Below are positions 1 through 6,757 of a stretch of DNA of 6,757 nt, piece after piece. Made by a program: the position numbers and the translations under genes. How positions within the stretch are numbered: position 1 is the first letter of the stretch; each line of letters opens with the position of its first letter. This stretch comes from Gammaproteobacteria bacterium (GTDB taxonomy: Bacteria; Pseudomonadota; Gammaproteobacteria; Pseudomonadales; Azotimanducaceae_A): contig JAPOON010000423.1 in the NCBI GenBank assembly GCA_026713405.1, positions 1 to 6,757 of the forward strand, given 5' to 3'. The notes below the pieces were generated by a model, which worked only from the letters and a program-made list of their open reading frames with translations, had not been told where the DNA came from and ran no database searches.

Positions 1-76
1 GCCGGGGAGCGCGAGGGGGCACCCCTCGCATGAAGGGAGCCCTCAGCCGGGGAGCGCGAGGGGGCACCCCTCGCAT
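1..76. repeat. 45-bp-period tandem direct repeat with hairpins, inside a coding frame
   Basis: A 31-bp block at 1-31 recurs exactly at 46-76, a period of 45 bp (15 codons). Each block contains a perfect 8-bp inverted repeat, gcgagggg/cccctcgc with a 3-nt gca loop (11-18/22-29 and 56-63/67-74). In the CoA-transferase frame the unit encodes SRGARGGTPRMKGAL. It sits just before the family's conserved 'NRGK' region, where a loop is expected, so it looks like an in-frame insertion of a REP-like palindromic element. The array may extend past the left edge, and the window may begin here because assembly broke in the repeat. Confidence 0.85.
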
Positions 77-2210
77 CGGTGATGAAGCGATGCCGGGATT
101 TCTTTGCTGGAATCGGGGCAAGGTGCTGGTCGGCCCATTGGACGACCCATCCCAGCATGCCCTTGAACTACGCCGCTTGGCGGAGCGCGCGGACATCCTG
201 CTGGCAGACACGCATCCGGGGTGTCTCGAGCGCAACGGCCTGGATGCCGCAACATTGGCAACGGCGACCCCGGCGCTCGTGCACGTATGGATGCCGCCCA
301 TCTCGGCGGGCGGCCGCTGGAGCCACCTGCCGCACGATGTATTGCTGCTCGATGCGGTCTCCGGATTCGCCGCCCATCACCCCGCCACCGAGGAGCGGCC
401 GGTGGCGTCCGTGGTGCCGACACGCCTGCACCTGCATGGCACCATGGCGGCGTCGGCCGCGGCGGCCGGGCTGTTCGCGAGAGCCCGCGATGGCTGGGGG
501 CGCTCTGCCGTGGTCACCGGCCTGCAGGCCGCGGGGGCGGCGCTGTGCACGCTCATGACCGCTTCCATCGACGGCCCGCCCATCGTTTCCTCCGGCAAGC
601 TGATCGGCGGAGGGTGCCAGTTCCGCTTGTATCAATGTGGTGACGAGCGCTGGATATTTCTCGGCGCGCTGTCTCCGGAGCTGTTCTTCCGGGCGCTCGA
701 TGTGCTCGACCGGGTGGATGTGATGGCCCGGGAAGATGTGGCCGGCGACTTCACGAACATCATGCGCCCGGAGATCGCGAGCCGGGTGGCCGCCGAGTTG
801 GAACCCGTCTTCAGGTCACGGACGGCAGCGTATTGGCTGCAGGCGTTTCGGGCAGCCGATGTGCCCGCGGCTCCGGTGCTGGCTCCCGATGCCTGGCTGG
901 AAGGCGAGGTGATCGCGGGCGCCTGTCCGCCGGTGCGCGTGGCGCACCCGGTGGTGGGTGAGCTTGTCATGCCGGGAGTTGCCGCGGACATGGAGCGGAC
1001 CCCGGGACGGGCGGGCCCGGTTCCCGTGCCGGGAGACCTCGCCGACATGCGTGACCTGTGGAAGGGCGCGGCGCTCCCCGAACCCGGGGGAAAGCGGCCG
1101 GAGCCGGGGGTTCTGCCGCTCACGGGCCTGAAAGTGGTCGATTCTTCGACGTTTCTTGCCGGGCCATTCGTGTCGAGTCTGTTGGGCACTCACGGTGCGG
1201 AAGTCATCAAGGTGGAGAGCCCCGATGGAGACCCGTACAGCGTGTTTACCGCCCCATACGCCATCGTCAATGAACACAAGAAAGCAGTCAGGCTCAACCT
1301 TCGCGATGCCGGTGAACGGGAAGAATTTCTCGAGCTGATCGCGCGCGCCGATGCGGCCGTCGACAACCTGCTCCCTGCGAGCCTTGCACGTCTTCGGTTG
1401 CAGCCCGAAGTGTACGCGCGCGCAAACGCGAATCTCGTTCGTTGCTCGGTCACCGCGTTCGGGCAGACGGGGGCGTGGGCCGAGTTTCCGGGATTCGATC
1501 CGCTGCTGCAGACCCTCAGCGGGCTTGCCGCAGTGCAGGGCGGGGAGGGTCGGCCGATTACGGCCGGCGCTCCGGTACACGATGTCACTACTGGCGCCGT
1601 CGGCGCCCTCGGGACCCTGGCGGCGCTTTACGTACGCGAGACCAGATGTGTTGCGCAACGCGTATTCACCTCGCTCGCGGCAGTTTCGACGTTGCTGCAA
1701 AGCGGTGAGCTGACCAGGTATCCGGGCCGTCCGGGGCGGGCTCTCGGCGGCATGGATCATCCCGGCCCCGATGCTTGCCGGCGCTACTATCGCGCGCAGG
1801 ACCGGTGGATGGCGATATCGGCGCGTACCCGGGAGCAGCGCGAGACGTTGCTCGACATCCTGGGGCTGGCCGACCTTGCCGGCGCCGGTGATGCGGCGCT
1901 TGCGGCGGCGATGGCTCGGGTTGTGTCGGGCAGGACGGTAGAGGATTGGGTTATCGCGCTGGCCGCGGGGGGTGTTCCGGCCTGTCAGGTACTTGAACGC
2001 GTGGAGTTCGACGCCCCGTTTCTTTGTGAACAGCGTTACACGAAGGTGGTCCACTCGGCCAGCGTGGGGCGGCTGCGCCTCATCGGCGGTTTTACCGATT
2101 GGCGGGGTGCACAACGGCGCGACGGTACACCACCAGGTGAGTACGAAATTGACTCAGCCGCGGTGGCGGAAGTCTGGCGCAAGACTGAGGGGGATGACAG
2201 TTGCATCTGA
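3..2210 (+). CDS. Tandem CaiB/BaiF (class III) CoA-transferase, 5' partial
   Basis: Predicted cytoplasmic enzyme moving CoA from a donor thioester to an organic acid. The frame is open to the left edge; the first ATG (base 30) lies inside a repeat and is not the true start. Residues here count from that ATG. The N-terminal domain (to about 345) begins at the family's 'NRGK' element (28-31) and ADILLAD (54-60), so the usual first 50-60 residues (the 'GP...GADVIKVE' part) are upstream of the window. A Pro/Gly linker (about 345-362) leads to a complete second domain: GLKVVDSSTFLAGP (366-379), GAEVIKVE (389-396), GFDPLLQTLSG (488-498), then PVHDVTTG with catalytic-type Asp518. The aligned position in domain 1 (PTRLHLHG) is Leu133, so only domain 2 looks catalytic. 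The stop overlaps the next gene by 10 nt. Family call is firm; substrate unknown. Tandem fusions of this kind and heteromers with one inactive subunit are known in the family. Confidence 0.93.
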   Translation, partial: RGARGGTPRMKGALSRGARGGTPRIGDEAMPGFLCWNRGKVLVGPLDDPSQHALELRRLAERADILLADTHPGCLERNGLDAATLATATPALVHVWMPPISAGGRWSHLPHDVLLLDAVSGFAAHHPATEERPVASVVPTRLHLHGTMAASAAAAGLFARARDGWGRSAVVTGLQAAGAALCTLMTASIDGPPIVSSGKLIGGGCQFRLYQCGDERWIFLGALSPELFFRALDVLDRVDVMAREDVAGDFTNIMRPEIASRVAAELEPVFRSRTAAYWLQAFRAADVPAAPVLAPDAWLEGEVIAGACPPVRVAHPVVGELVMPGVAADMERTPGRAGPVPVPGDLADMRDLWKGAALPEPGGKRPEPGVLPLTGLKVVDSSTFLAGPFVSSLLGTHGAEVIKVESPDGDPYSVFTAPYAIVNEHKKAVRLNLRDAGEREEFLELIARADAAVDNLLPASLARLRLQPEVYARANANLVRCSVTAFGQTGAWAEFPGFDPLLQTLSGLAAVQGGEGRPITAGAPVHDVTTGAVGALGTLAALYVRETRCVAQRVFTSLAAVSTLLQSGELTRYPGRPGRALGGMDHPGPDACRRYYRAQDRWMAISARTREQRETLLDILGLADLAGAGDAALAAAMARVVSGRTVEDWVIALAAGGVPACQVLERVEFDAPFLCEQRYTKVVHSASVGRLRLIGGFTDWRGAQRRDGTPPGEYEIDSAAVAEVWRKTEGDDSCI
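2187..2193 (+). promoter_or_regulatory. Shine-Dalgarno deciding a TTG start
   Basis: The sequence gaggggg ends 7 nt before the TTG at 2201. The nearby ATG at 2194 is in another frame and stops at 2214. No other start lies in the MmgE/PrpD frame before conserved sequence begins. The site lies in the last codons of the CoA-transferase gene, consistent with translational coupling. Confidence 0.7.
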
Positions 2211-3577
2211 CTGAGACGATAGCGCGTTCCATTGCTGCGACCGATTACGACAGTATCCCGGTCGACGTTCGGGAAAAAACGAGGCTCAGCATTCTGGACA
2301 CGCTCGGCGTCATGGTGCCGCCCTCCAGCCTGGACCCGACCTGCGAACGCCTGGCGGAAATCGTGACACAAGAGAGCGGCCCGGGCCGGTCGACGATGAT
2401 AGGGCTGGGTAAGACAGGCTCCGCCGTCATGGCTGCCTATCTCAACGGCTCCTTCGCCCACGTCCTGGACTACGACGACACAATCGACGACCTGGGTCAT
2501 CATCCGTCGGCACAAACCGTTCCAGCGGCGCTCGCCGTTGCCGAGCGCCTGGGCAACGTGAGCGGCAGGGAGTTTATCACCGCGGTTGCCCTCGGCGGTG
2601 ATCTGGGCGCGCGCCTGTCCGCATCCCCCACCGGCAAGCTCGGCGTCGATCACCGCTGGTTTCCGATCAGCAATTTCGGGGTCTTCTCCGCGACCGCTGC
2701 CGCCGGCAAGCTGCTGCGCCTGAGCGAAGGCCAACTGATCAATGCGCTCGGCCTTGCATTGCACCGCTGTCACGGACAACTCGATGCCGTCGCGGCGCCG
2801 GAGTCGGAGTTGCGCGCGATCCGGGACGGTTTCATCAACAAGGAGGGGGTGCTGTGCGCGTTGTTGGCCGGGAGTGGCGTCAAGGCATGCCGCAACGGGA
2901 TTGAGCTTTTTTTTGAAAACTACTACGACAACCGCTTTGATGCGGAACGGCTGCTGTCGGGATTGGGGGAGGAGTACCGCCACGCCGGGGTCAGCCTGAA
3001 GCCCTGGCCCTGTTGCCGCCTGACCCACGGCTACGTGGAGGCAACCCGCAGGATTCTCGCTCAGAACAGCATCGTGCCGGCGAACATCAGGCAGATCACG
3101 CTGGTCGTCTCTGAGGGAACGCGAGACCTGTTCTGCGAACCCGAGGTTGAAAAGAGGGCGCCGACCATGAGCATTCAAGCAAAGTTTTCGCTCTTCTTTA
3201 CGGTTGCCGTTGGCGTAATCAAAACGCCCCGGATCGCGGATTTTCTCCCGGCGAATCTGCGGAGTCGCGATGTGCTGGCCGCCATTCGCCGCGTGCAATA
3301 TCGGGTCAGTGACGAGCTTGGCCCCGCTGCCGAGATCACACCGGCCATCGTTGAAGTCCAGACGAAGGACGGACAGGCTTTCTCCGATCGACTCAACATC
3401 GTTTTCGGGCACCCGAACAACCCGATGTCCGAGGAATACGTCATTGCGAAATTCAAGGATTGCCTGCAATACGCCAGGCACCCGATACCGGAACAACAGA
3501 TCGACCGGTTGATCGACTCGCTGTTGCGCCTGGATGTCGTTCAGGACGTGAGGGAAGCTTCCGCGCTGCTGCCGTAG
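2201..3577 (+). CDS. MmgE/PrpD family protein
   Basis: 458 residues, the usual length of the family that includes 2-methylcitrate dehydratase, cis-aconitate decarboxylase and iminodisuccinate epimerase; predicted soluble and cytoplasmic. Family landmarks: NGSFAHVLDYDDT (82-94), the HPS triplet (101-103) in the substrate pocket, a helical core around GVFSATAAAGKLL (160-172), NKEGVLCALLAG (213-224), KPWPCCRLTH (267-276), and AKFSLFFTVA (327-336) in the second domain. TTG start chosen from the Shine-Dalgarno and the lack of alternatives. It overlaps the CoA-transferase stop by 10 nt, so the pair is probably one operon acting on one acid or its CoA ester. Where many relatives read H-P-T in the middle of the lid domain, this protein reads W-F-P-I (153-156), so a loss of that His is likely and the reaction cannot be transferred from characterised members. 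Family firm, reaction unknown. Confidence 0.93.
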   Translation: MHLTETIARSIAATDYDSIPVDVREKTRLSILDTLGVMVPPSSLDPTCERLAEIVTQESGPGRSTMIGLGKTGSAVMAAYLNGSFAHVLDYDDTIDDLGHHPSAQTVPAALAVAERLGNVSGREFITAVALGGDLGARLSASPTGKLGVDHRWFPISNFGVFSATAAAGKLLRLSEGQLINALGLALHRCHGQLDAVAAPESELRAIRDGFINKEGVLCALLAGSGVKACRNGIELFFENYYDNRFDAERLLSGLGEEYRHAGVSLKPWPCCRLTHGYVEATRRILAQNSIVPANIRQITLVVSEGTRDLFCEPEVEKRAPTMSIQAKFSLFFTVAVGVIKTPRIADFLPANLRSRDVLAAIRRVQYRVSDELGPAAEITPAIVEVQTKDGQAFSDRLNIVFGHPNNPMSEEYVIAKFKDCLQYARHPIPEQQIDRLIDSLLRLDVVQDVREASALLP

Positions 3578-4419
3578 CCGGAATGATCCGCCGGGTGCAT
3601 TCTCTTGCCAGCCAGGGTCGGCGTCCCGCGGGCGGCGGCAGGATCAGTCTTTGCCGCGGTCCATGGCGGTTTCCGCCAACGCCATGTCGCCCCGACACTG
3701 CGACTTGCCCAGCAGAACGTCAAGCCGCAAACGAGCGCCGTGGTACCGATGACGCCCAGCATGGAGTAGCGAATGGACAACTCCCCGAACTGGGGGGCCA
3801 GCAGGTCATTGGTCAGCCCGACCAGGAACGGGCCGCCGCCCATACCCAACAGACTGGTCACCATGTACTGCGTCGTATAGCTCATGGAGCGCATCTCGGG
3901 CCGGACGATGCCCTGGGTCACGGTAGCCACGGCAGGCGCGGAAGCCGCCATGCAGGCGATCATGGGCAGATAGGCGAACATGGCCCAGCCGGGTTCGGCC
4001 ACATTGAGGAAAGCGAATACCAGCGGAACCGACAACAGGTTGGCAATTCCCACCACGCCCATGTACCAGCTCTTGCTCCGGGCGCTCAGCCTGTCCGTCA
4101 TGAAACCGCCGATCAAATTGCCCAGCGCCGCCCCGAGGCCCGTGACCAGGCCGATCCTGAGCCCGACTTCCGTGGTGCTCAAACCGTGTATGCGGATGAA
4201 ATAGGCGGCCGCCCAGGCGAAGCTGGCGTACACCGCCGCGAAGGCGAATCCCGTCAGGAAGCCCATTGCGGTGTCGCTGGCCCCCAGTTCGTTCTGGATC
4301 GGCACCAGCAGGATGGACATGATCTGCCGGTCGAGGTTGTGTACCAGGAAGACTACCGTCAGCAGCAGCAGGGCGTACCGTGAATAACCGGCCGTAATGG
4401 GTTTGAGGGCTGCCGTCAT
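3541..4419 (-). CDS. MFS transporter (spinster-like), internally deleted and probably frameshifted; likely non-functional
   Basis: 292 residues from the ATG at 4419; related carriers have about 420-450 and 12 membrane helices. Present are TM1 (about 15-40, with the NLDRQI motif), loop IQNELGASDTAMG and TM2 (52-66). The sequence then passes straight into the TM7/TM8 loop (YFIRIHGLSTTEVG, 73-86), TM8 (GLGAALGNLIGGFMTDRL), and TM9-TM12 ending near 238. TM3-TM6, most of TM7 and the 'GIP..RLADR' loop are absent, about 150 residues lost in frame around base 4220. At 3688-3693 the frame seems to slip in a G run: one extra G would give VGGDMALAETAMDRGKD and a stop at 3644, like family C-termini. The actual frame runs 54 unrelated residues further and overlaps the MmgE/PrpD gene by 37 nt. 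The start overlaps the ybjQ-type stop as ATGA. Transport activity is unlikely. A catabolite importer would fit the neighbours, but that is inference. Confidence 0.85.
   Translation of the reverse strand: MTAALKPITAGYSRYALLLLTVVFLVHNLDRQIMSILLVPIQNELGASDTAMGFLTGFAFAAVYASFAWAAAYFIRIHGLSTTEVGLRIGLVTGLGAALGNLIGGFMTDRLSARSKSWYMGVVGIANLLSVPLVFAFLNVAEPGWAMFAYLPMIACMAASAPAVATVTQGIVRPEMRSMSYTTQYMVTSLLGMGGGPFLVGLTNDLLAPQFGELSIRYSMLGVIGTTALVCGLTFCWASRSVGATWRWRKPPWTAAKTDPAAARGTPTLAGKRMHPADHSGYGSSAEASLTS
4416..4419 (-). promoter_or_regulatory. ATGA stop/start overlap (translational coupling)
   Basis: On the minus strand ATG (4419-4417) of the MFS gene and TGA (4418-4416) of the YbjQ-type gene share bases. 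No convincing Shine-Dalgarno precedes the MFS start, which fits termination-reinitiation. Confidence 0.7.
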
Positions 4420-4754
4420 CGAAGGCGAACGGCCGTCCCCGAGGCGACCAGGAATACCATGCCCTTGCCCCCGCCGCTGATCTCGCTGAAATCGAGGTCG
4501 ACGCCGATGACCGCATCGCCGCCGAGTTCTTCGGCATGCGCCGCGAGTTCCTCGAGGCAGGTCTGGCGTGCCTGCCTGAGCGCTTTCTGGTGTGTGCCGC
4601 TGCGGCCTCCGAAGATGTCCCGCAGGCCGCCGAGCATGTCGCGGAAGACGTTGATGCCCAGCACGCATTCGGCCGTGACGATGCCGAGTGTTTCCTGAAT
4701 CTCCCGGCCGGGCACTGAATGGGTCGTCGTCAGGTTTGTCAGTGGGATAGTCAT
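4416..4754 (-). CDS. ybjQ: YbjQ/UPF0145 family protein
   Basis: 112 residues, matching the roughly 105-110 of the YbjQ family (Pfam DUF74, 'putative heavy-metal-binding domain'). This is a small cytoplasmic protein seen as pentamers in structural work, with no settled function. Hallmarks in order: GIVTAECVLGINVFRD (24-39), GGLRDIFGGRSG (42-53), a helix rich in Ala, Glu and Arg (54-77), GGDAVIGVDLDFS (78-90), and a C-terminal strand VASGTAVRL (103-111). Nothing is missing. The ATG at 4754 fits the family's N-terminus; an AGG 8 nt upstream on the minus strand is only a weak Shine-Dalgarno. Its stop shares four bases (ATGA) with the start of the damaged MFS gene, so the two were probably translated in sequence. 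The start codon directly abuts that of a possible divergent small ORF. Confidence 0.92.
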   Translation of the reverse strand: MTIPLTNLTTTHSVPGREIQETLGIVTAECVLGINVFRDMLGGLRDIFGGRSGTHQKALRQARQTCLEELAAHAEELGGDAVIGVDLDFSEISGGGKGMVFLVASGTAVRLR

Positions 4755-5003
4755 ATGGGCAGCCTGTTGCGGTTTGTGAAACTTTTCGACTTTATCCTGA
4801 ATTTGGTTTTCCGTTTGGTCTGGTCATCCCGTGGGATCGACGGTGACGAAAAGATTGTGGGTTCGAAGGAACTTTCGGGGGCGGATTCAGTCCAACAGCA
4901 AATGCGATCTCGATCGCCTTCCGTGGCGGGTCAAAGCACCCAGCGAGGGATAAGCGGCGGGCTGTCGGTTCCGGTGGGCCGGCTTGAGGAAGTTTCGCAG
5001 TGA
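4755..5003 (+). CDS. Small hypothetical protein with hydrophobic N-terminal helix (tentative)
   Basis: Possible 82-residue protein, not recognised. Residues 4-23 form a Leu/Phe/Val-rich segment with scattered basic residues (LLRFVKLFDF...RLVW), which could be a single membrane anchor or an amphipathic helix. The rest is polar and Ser/Gln/Gly-rich, ending RLEEVSQ. A GGGA seven bases before the ATG is a modest Shine-Dalgarno. Its start directly abuts the divergent YbjQ-type start (CATATG), so each gene's 5' signals would lie in the other gene. It ends 64 nt before the Shine-Dalgarno-supported start of the long downstream gene and runs the same way, so co-transcription is possible. Against it: short, no known family, and the T-rich interval at 4771-4820 could equally be the promoter region of the YbjQ-type gene. 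Confidence 0.4.
   Translation: MGSLLRFVKLFDFILNLVFRLVWSSRGIDGDEKIVGSKELSGADSVQQQMRSRSPSVAGQSTQRGISGGLSVPVGRLEEVSQ
4771..4820. promoter_or_regulatory. AT-rich interval upstream of the YbjQ-type gene (possible promoter region)
   Basis: About 31 of 50 bases are A or T, in clear contrast to the surrounding GC-rich sequence, 17-66 bases upstream of the YbjQ-type start codon. No well-spaced -35/-10 pair could be read with confidence on either strand. The same composition is explained if the interval codes for the Phe/Leu/Val-rich helix of the tentative small ORF. Confidence 0.3.
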
Positions 5004-5057
5004 TTCATCACGCGACCCGGGCAGGATGGCGGTTGTGCGTGACGATGGGGCCGAATC

Positions 5058-5063
5058 AGGAGG
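5058..5063 (+). promoter_or_regulatory. Shine-Dalgarno of the long right-hand gene
   Basis: A perfect AGGAGG lies 4 nt before the ATG at 5068, the best ribosome binding site in the window. It favours this start over the in-frame ATG at 5026, which has only an AGG touching the start codon. Confidence 0.7.
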
Positions 5064-5067
5064 CAAC

Positions 5068-6757
5068 ATGGAACGAGCGCCGAGTGTGGTGGAACCGGCC
5101 ACCAGCGGGACTCGCGAGGGGGCTGGACAATCCGGGTCGGGGCGACAGGGAGGCAACTTCAACGGCCGCCGTGTATCGGAGCGGGCTGCATCAGCGAACT
5201 GCGCTACGGGCGTAGGGGAACACGGGCAGTCGGGGACTGCCCCCAATGCTGACAGAAGAGACCGAAGCCTTCGTTCGCGTCTGGTCCAGTTTATTCGAAC
5301 GGCGGTTCGCAAACTGCGTACGTTCGCCGAGTCTGGCAGGGTTGAGACTGGGGTACCGCAGCGTCGACCGCATAACCAGGCGGGCGAAACCCGTCCTTTG
5401 CGCGAGATGCCCGCCCCCCTTCGGAATTCGCCGGATTCTCCGCCAGCTGCGATCGACGTTTCATCAGCCTCTCGCCCGGCCATGGGGGGGGTGGAGGGTC
5501 AGTTGGGCGAAAGCCCGGCCCTGCAGGAATTCCTGCGCATCAATCAGGCTACCCCGGACAATCCCCAGGCCCTGCAGGCGGAACTCGAGGCTCTCGTGGA
5601 CGAGTTGTCGTCGACGGGCGAAGAAGACGACGACCACATTGACCGGATGAGCGCGGATCGACCGTCAGAACCGTCGTGGCGAAGGGAGGCGGCGAAGGGC
5701 GCGAGAACCTCGCCCGTATACGAGCGGGTCGGGCCAGCCGGCTCACCATCGCCGGAAATGCAGGAACGATTGACGGGAGCCACGACTGGTTTGACGGACG
5801 AGGAAGTCGACTGGCATTCGTTTGCCACGCCGCCGCGGTCTTCAAGCGGCCTCCACAAGGCTGTGCTGGACGCGAATCGTGAGTTGCGTTTGCTTCAACA
5901 AGCCAGTGAGCAAAGCTTGGGTACAGTGGACCGAAACGACACGCAGGCTTCTTCGAGCGTTGCCCTGAGCACGCTACGAACTCAGAGACTGACAAAGCTC
6001 CGCAATGCCGCAGGCTGGATCGAGGCGGATGGTGAACGCGATCGTGAGACGGTGGATTTGCTGAAACGGTTCTATCTTGACACGTTGGACGAGGCGGGGA
6101 TGCGCCGCATGGCCGATCATCTATCCGCGAACCGGGTTATCGCGGCCAAGATCGAGAATTTGGCGGCTACTATCAAGAGAAAATCCCAGGTCCTCGATCA
6201 ACTCCTTGAGGAAAACGATGGCACTTCCGGGGCGGGTCGGCGGCTTGCGCAGGCGTTGCGGGTTCGATTCGAGGAGCGTGTCGAGGAATTGTGGCAGTTG
6301 CATCTGCTGGGAGCATGGGTAGGCGTTCAATCGGAACGTGACTGCCTGTTCCGGTCGCCCTGGCTGGACGCGTCGAACGGGGCGTTGCCAAGTCCGGAGA
6401 ACGAACAGCCGAAACCGGCTACACGAAGCGGGCCTTCGGACCAAGCATCCGGCTCTGATGGCGAAACCTTGCCCAAGTCAGTCGATGCAGTGCGTGACGC
6501 CACGATGCGCGACACGAGTTCCCTTGAGTCAGCCAAATCGCGGGCCGCCCAGCCGTTGGGCAGTGTCAGTTCCAGGGACGGCCCGCCCGCGCCACCCGAA
6601 GCAGTCAGCGAAACCACGGTGCGGGCATCGCCGCCGGCGGACACGGGTGGCGGCGCGGTATCGAGTGACGACTCACAGGATTCGCCAGAGCTTGCAAACG
6701 GTTTTAGTGAATACGACATCGCCCTGTACCGTGCGCTGGAACTGCTGAACAAGTCCA
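5068..6757 (+). CDS. Large unrecognised protein, disordered and helical segments, 3' partial
   Basis: At least 563 residues; the frame has no stop from 4954 to the right edge. I recognise no family. Residues 1-65 are Gly/Ser/Arg-rich and disordered-looking. A basic helix follows (68-90, RSRLVQFIRTAVRKLRTF), then Pro/Ser-rich linker, a short helical stretch (150-180) ending in the acidic run GEEDDD, and more linker. A long helical, partly coiled-coil-like region spans about 262-425 (e.g. VDLLKRFYLDTLDE, VEELWQLHLLGAWVG), then a Ser/Pro/Asp-rich tail (432-543). A new ordered segment (EYDIALYRALELLN) starts at the window's end. No signal peptide or clear membrane span; two Cys. By hand count about 20 of some 60 Arg codons are CGA/AGA/AGG, roughly three times the share in the CoA-transferase gene, which suggests different ancestry or low expression. 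Start from AGGAGG; ATG 5026 is the alternative. Could be an effector, a scaffold or a surface-associated protein, all speculative. Confidence 0.75.
   Translation, partial: MERAPSVVEPATSGTREGAGQSGSGRQGGNFNGRRVSERAASANCATGVGEHGQSGTAPNADRRDRSLRSRLVQFIRTAVRKLRTFAESGRVETGVPQRRPHNQAGETRPLREMPAPLRNSPDSPPAAIDVSSASRPAMGGVEGQLGESPALQEFLRINQATPDNPQALQAELEALVDELSSTGEEDDDHIDRMSADRPSEPSWRREAAKGARTSPVYERVGPAGSPSPEMQERLTGATTGLTDEEVDWHSFATPPRSSSGLHKAVLDANRELRLLQQASEQSLGTVDRNDTQASSSVALSTLRTQRLTKLRNAAGWIEADGERDRETVDLLKRFYLDTLDEAGMRRMADHLSANRVIAAKIENLAATIKRKSQVLDQLLEENDGTSGAGRRLAQALRVRFEERVEELWQLHLLGAWVGVQSERDCLFRSPWLDASNGALPSPENEQPKPATRSGPSDQASGSDGETLPKSVDAVRDATMRDTSSLESAKSRAAQPLGSVSSRDGPPAPPEAVSETTVRASPPADTGGGAVSSDDSQDSPELANGFSEYDIALYRALELLNKS
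5224..5242. repeat. Perfect 8-bp inverted repeat inside the long right-hand gene
   Basis: gggcagtc (5224-5231) and gactgccc (5235-5242) are exact reverse complements with a ggg loop. No T-run follows, so it is not an intrinsic terminator. It lies in the disordered N-terminal coding part, about 155 bases after the start codon, and might shape the mRNA or be a relic of a palindromic element. Confidence 0.5.

Follow-up and report, generated by a model that had tools for sequence, protein, structure and literature searches.

An orphan gene for a partly disordered protein with two related helical modules in a gammaproteobacterial contig, and its possible role in host contact

Analysis of a 6,757-nucleotide (nt) stretch of a contig from a gammaproteobacterium (positions 1 to 6757 of JAPOON010000423.1, assembly GCA_026713405.1; the whole stretch is called the window here) showed that the gene at its right end encodes a protein that could be assigned to no family in the libraries searched. 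Disordered and helical segments alternate in the predicted layout of this protein, its helical module occurs in two diverged copies, and divergence among its close relatives is uneven. The reading that we favor, tentatively, is that a host-associated bacterium exports this protein as an effector or adaptor type; the main rival reading is a scaffold that stays inside the cell. The features of the gene and its product are collected in Table 1.

TABLE 1 Features of the orphan gene and its product
Feature	Residues	Position in window	Strand	Remark
Shine-Dalgarno-like AGGAGG		5058..5063	+	4 bases ahead of ATG 5068
Orphan gene	1-563	5068..6757	+	563 codons, 3′ end open
N-terminal tail	1-60	5068..5247	+	Gly/Ala/Ser/Arg-rich, predicted disordered
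Conserved stretch FNGRRVSERAASA	31-43	5158..5196	+	Identical in P0001, one change in P0003; comparison excludes P0002, which is without the N-terminal region
Predicted low-confidence helix	60-90	5245..5337	+	Conserved RSLRSRLV; Phi-X4-Phi-x-Phi at residue 68
Helical module 1	257-419	5836..6324	+	Predicted; similar arrangement in P0002 model
Most divergent 40-residue stretch	350-389	6115..6234	+	Mostly helix 342-381; three close sequences
Strictly conserved signature EELWQLHLLGAW	406-417	6283..6318	+	Identical in all four sequences
Ser/Pro/Gly/acidic linker	433-540	6364..6687	+	Predicted disordered
Start of helical module 2	541-563	6688..6756	+	Runs past window edge

Coding status and relatives

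Following a TAA stop at 4951 to 4953, the plus-strand frame remains open from 4954 to 6757, where it is cut by the window edge. This frame, the AGGAGG at 4 nt from an ATG, and a product of at least 563 residues had all been proposed in the initial annotation, and they were recovered when the sequence was read again, which gave 563 residues up to position 6756. The gene continues past the 3′ edge. Since P0001 and P0002, two of the relatives described below, extend about 164 residues further, the expected full length, by extrapolation from them, is about 727 residues (563 + 164).

The GC content of 64%, together with 34 open reading frames (ORFs) of at least 80 residues over both strands, could favor a frame that is open by chance in GC-rich DNA and is no real gene. 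However, the longest open run in 4601 to 6757 was 601 codons, whereas in 500 base shuffles of this stretch the median was 136 codons and no run exceeded 450, and the frame is conserved in three relatives, which refutes the chance reading and leaves it a negligible probability. The conservation of these relatives in the same frame settles the earlier claim that the gene is protein coding. Its third-position GC content is 0.67, compared to 0.76 to 0.82 in the four neighboring genes. A promoter scan of 4600 to 5200 found no promoter-like site and one terminator-like site, on the minus strand (shuffle mean, 0.4), and two plant-pathogen-type regulatory boxes were absent from 4755 to 5067. Rfam gave no match at the gathering score.

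The orthologue search suggested earlier was carried out against about 5.8 billion proteins, of which the 7997 candidates sharing most words were scored. It returned three relatives encoded on ENA contigs, P0002 (497 amino acids), P0001 (681 amino acids), and P0003 (683 amino acids), whose identities to the window protein over aligned columns are 91%, 74%, and 40%, respectively. A repeat search with the four-sequence alignment (7992 candidates scored) returned the same three. All three share with the window protein the order module 1, linker, module 2 and an identical EELWQLHLLGAW signature; P0001 and P0003, but not P0002, also have its N-terminal tail, and P0003 has a longer linker. The first residues of P0001 and P0003 align with the ATG 5068 start. 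P0002, encoded on a 1.64-Mb contig, begins at window residue 231 (position 5758); perhaps the N-terminal portion is missing from that genome or lies out of frame there, or the start was called late. Two differences were seen in P0001. It is without window residues 117 to 222 (106 residues, 5416 to 5733), a region where P0003 aligns partly and at low identity, and its residues ∼165 to 262 form a tandem repeat of a module 1 piece, with two copies of a block containing RLLQQ and TVDRNDRQAS. This repeat was not seen in the window protein, P0002, or P0003.

No further relatives were confirmed in genome and mobile-element collections. Two scans of GTDB species genomes gave 36 and 200 pattern matches and a scan of IMG/VR viral contigs gave 106, none of them a confirmed relative, with the limit that pattern-based scans may miss diverged relatives. 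Likewise, no relative was found in 72,556 plasmid records with P0001 as the query (a single match at E 0.5) or in 50,697 phage records with the window protein as the query. The N-terminal region of P0001, used as a query by itself, returned P0001 alone from 1339 candidates; it missed even P0003, and this search therefore carries little information on shared N termini.

Searches of family libraries agreed with the earlier statement that the protein matches no known family. Pfam gave no family for the window protein at E values up to 1 or for the three relatives at E values up to 10, and NCBIfam gave none for all four proteins at E values up to 1. The PADLOC anti-phage defense models gave none at E values up to 1. 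PHROGs returned chance-level rows only (best E, 0.054), a single one per relative, with the window protein giving no row at all, and the sequences of solved structures returned 10 distinct sequences at E values up to 10, again at chance level (best E, 0.25). By these comparisons, the family is an orphan within the libraries searched.

Two copies of a helical module

The predicted models reproduce the alternation of disordered linkers and helical blocks that had been described from the sequence. In module 1, helices are predicted at residues 257 to 286, 292 to 336 (with a break at 321), 342 to 381, and 389 to 419. The mean predicted local distance difference test score (pLDDT) of the window-protein model was 41.5, with ten-residue means of 48 to 71 over residues 257 to 419 and values under 50 for residues 1 to 246 and 415 to 546. 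The P0002 model had a mean pLDDT of 52.7; its matching part also consists of long helices, and a second helical bundle is predicted in it.

Comparison of the two modules by hhalign, using profiles built from four sequences for module 1 and three for module 2, aligned 138 columns at 20% identity with a probability of 94.6% and an E value of 6.6e-8. The score was 53.5; none of 200 column shuffles did as well, the best of them scoring 22.0, and the reversed profile scored 13.6. Pairwise BLAST of the two modules, as a two-sequence comparison with the composition correction off, gave an E value of 4e-11 within P0003, a weak match within P0001 (E 0.001), and no agreement within P0002. At the level of sequence profiles, module 2 is thus a diverged copy of module 1, and the segment starting at the window edge is therefore a second copy of the domain already in view. 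The initial annotation had suggested that the informative domain might lie beyond the edge: an ordered segment does begin there, but it is this second module copy rather than a separate domain.

Foldseek, in a search that left out the window-protein model, gave 240 matches in PDB and 218 among viral models at E values up to 10, none of them at ≤0.001, and CagL and syntaxin-like matches were set aside as generic bundles. Four-helix-bundle membrane-localization domains are reported in effectors such as BteA (PMC8100071). The likeness to the window protein lies in a predicted helical bundle within an otherwise disordered protein. The window family differs from the domain described there in having two copies, both far from the N terminus, in showing no sequence match, and in yielding only generic bundles on fold comparison.

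Uneven divergence

Among the close relatives, the linker is better conserved than the module core. Between the window protein and P0002, identity is 94% in the linker (102/108) and 85% in the module 1 core (104/122); the corresponding values are 82% and 66% for P0001 versus P0002 and 79% and 73% for the window protein versus P0001. In comparisons with the distant P0003 it is instead the module core that is better conserved, at 47 to 56% identity, and the linker less so, at 30 to 35%. Within module 1, one stretch, residues ∼350 to 389, is more variable among the close relatives than the disordered linker. For instance, this stretch holds 12 of the 31 differences between the window protein and P0002 (permutation P = 0.0032), and it is also the most divergent 40-residue segment between the window protein and P0001 (P = 0.053); for P0001 versus P0002, the maximum falls at 349 to 388 in window numbering (P = 0.015). 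These P values are uncorrected for the three segment lengths tried and come from pairs that have sequences in common. The peak may be a hint of diversification and is not proof of selection.

N-terminal region

Residues 1 to 60 of the window protein contain neither Leu nor Ile. The same region of P0001 has no Leu and 2% Ile, and in P0003 Leu makes up 7% while Ile is absent. The hydropathy profiles gave no clear sign of a transmembrane segment or a hydrophobic signal, the maximum 19-residue Kyte-Doolittle mean being 0.56 for the window protein; the maxima for the relatives were 0.92 to 1.20. The chaperone-binding beta-motif of type III effectors is given as Phi-(X1-4)-Phi-x-Phi within residues 21 to 90 (PMC6114900, PMC7406222), and the second source describes the motif alone as prone to many false positives (PMC7406222). 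The window protein resembles the effectors of those accounts in its disordered, polar N-terminal tail and in having a Phi-X4-Phi-x-Phi motif inside this range. It differs from them in that no known effector domain and no secretion system are in view. FNGRR was not found with type III secretion among the literature matches listed. Overall, the polar N terminus, predicted to be disordered, is compatible with a type III secretion signal in the window protein; the fit is poorer for P0003.

Possible functions

The layout of a flexible tail, helical modules strung on disordered segments, no catalytic family, few relatives, and one helix that may be changing fast would suit a protein exported to interact with a host as well as a scaffold inside the cell. 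If exported, the protein, of about 727 residues, would be modular and restricted to its lineage, and it would bind a partner rather than act as an enzyme. Its flexible N-terminal tail, followed by an amphipathic helix, would act as the export signal, and its most likely way out of the cell would be an injection-type secretion system or another that is independent of Sec. The two related helical-bundle modules, tethered by the long disordered linker, might then grip a partner in or on the host cell, one of them through a diversifying helix. The narrow distribution, as judged by the sequence searches, and the low third-position GC content of the gene were both counted in favor of export. Also counted were the duplicated module, the lack of a clear hydrophobic segment, the Leu- and Ile-free tail of the window protein with its conserved short motif, the shared position of the divergence peak in the three close pairs, and the apparent internal deletion in a neighboring transporter gene, since such deletions occur in shrinking genomes of host-bound bacteria. 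The effector-type label of the initial annotation serves here as a lead only, with which the N terminus is compatible.

Several observations weigh against export. Within the window there is no sign of a host or of genes for secretion or chaperones, and no effector family is known for the protein by Pfam or NCBIfam, the solved-structure rows being at chance level. The Phi-X4-Phi-x-Phi motif is conserved in the three sequences that have the N terminus, but 5% of column shuffles contain its strict form and 17% its loose form, so that it does not stand clearly above chance. The tail free of Leu and Ile is not a family-wide trait, because P0003 carries Leu there. The divergence peak also depends on segment length: with 20- and 30-residue segments the maximum between the window protein and P0001 lies elsewhere, at 84 to 103 (P = 0.14) and 74 to 103 (P = 0.25), and the other two pairs gave P values of 0.07 and 0.13 for their 20-residue maxima, leaving no pair significant at that length. 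Selection is not established, because the peak rests on three related proteins and on the protein level only.

The main rival, to which we give appreciable weight, is an intracellular scaffold whose two helical modules on a flexible string would bridge or cluster partners inside the bacterium, for example at the cell pole, the inner face of the envelope, or a granule or filament. Scaffolds typically consist of helical modules with a disordered linker between them, no export machinery is seen within the window, and the linker is well kept relative to the module core between the window protein and P0002, as if it had a job of its own. However, scaffolds of central processes are usually widespread, and this family was found in few sequences. 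A surface or adhesin-like protein that is secreted by an unconventional route and retained on the bacterial surface seems improbable. Somewhat more doubtful is a mobile-element or prophage gene, whose structural or accessory product would not serve the host bacterium. Such a gene would account for a third-position GC content below that of the neighbors and for the scarcity of relatives, but no relative was found among the phage and plasmid records or confirmed in IMG/VR, the PHROGs rows were at chance level, the window proteins scanned included no mobile-element family, and P0002 sits on a 1.64-Mb contig.

Export with host contact remains our preferred reading, held with reservation. A stronger version of it is unlikely as a whole: the protein would found a new exported host-interaction family with a doubled helical module set on disordered strings, a host partner would be driving the diversification of one helix in module 1, and the genome of the bacterium would be shrinking. 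If export is true, the family would represent a new type of host-contact protein with a modular build; if the protein is not exported, it would be a lineage-specific scaffold. Under either reading the family is described by none of the libraries searched, and its four sequences offer a clean case for studying the origin of a partly disordered protein confined to one lineage, along with its binding partners.

Neighboring genes

To the left of the orphan gene lie genes for a CoA-transferase and an MmgE/PrpD protein and, on the other strand, for an MFS-type transporter and a YbjQ protein; the MFS match of the transporter is below the Pfam cut-off. When the neighbor proteins were compared with plasmids, all matches fell below 60% identity and belonged to mixed groups. 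YbjQ (minus strand) and the orphan gene (plus strand) are separated by a divergent gap of 313 bases (4755 to 5067), with a GC content of 0.49 in 4755 to 4880. A small ORF at 4755 to 5003 was not accepted as a gene: it begins right next to the start of YbjQ on the opposite strand, and it has no family match.

Two of the neighbors look incomplete. The family match of the CoA-transferase (93 to 2210, plus strand) begins at position 41 of a 366-position profile. A perfect 31-base direct repeat (1 to 31 and 46 to 76), with a near-palindrome, lies where the N terminus of this protein would be expected; a 21-base core of the repeat was not found in viral contigs. In the transporter gene (3541 to 4419, minus strand), residues 14 to 73 align with residues 32 to 91 of a Sphingobium transporter, and from residue 74 the alignment resumes at Sphingobium residue 264, with about 170 middle residues absent; the last ∼50 residues are without a counterpart there. 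The transporter gene is probably decayed, and both genes suggest, though they do not prove, gene decay near the orphan gene.
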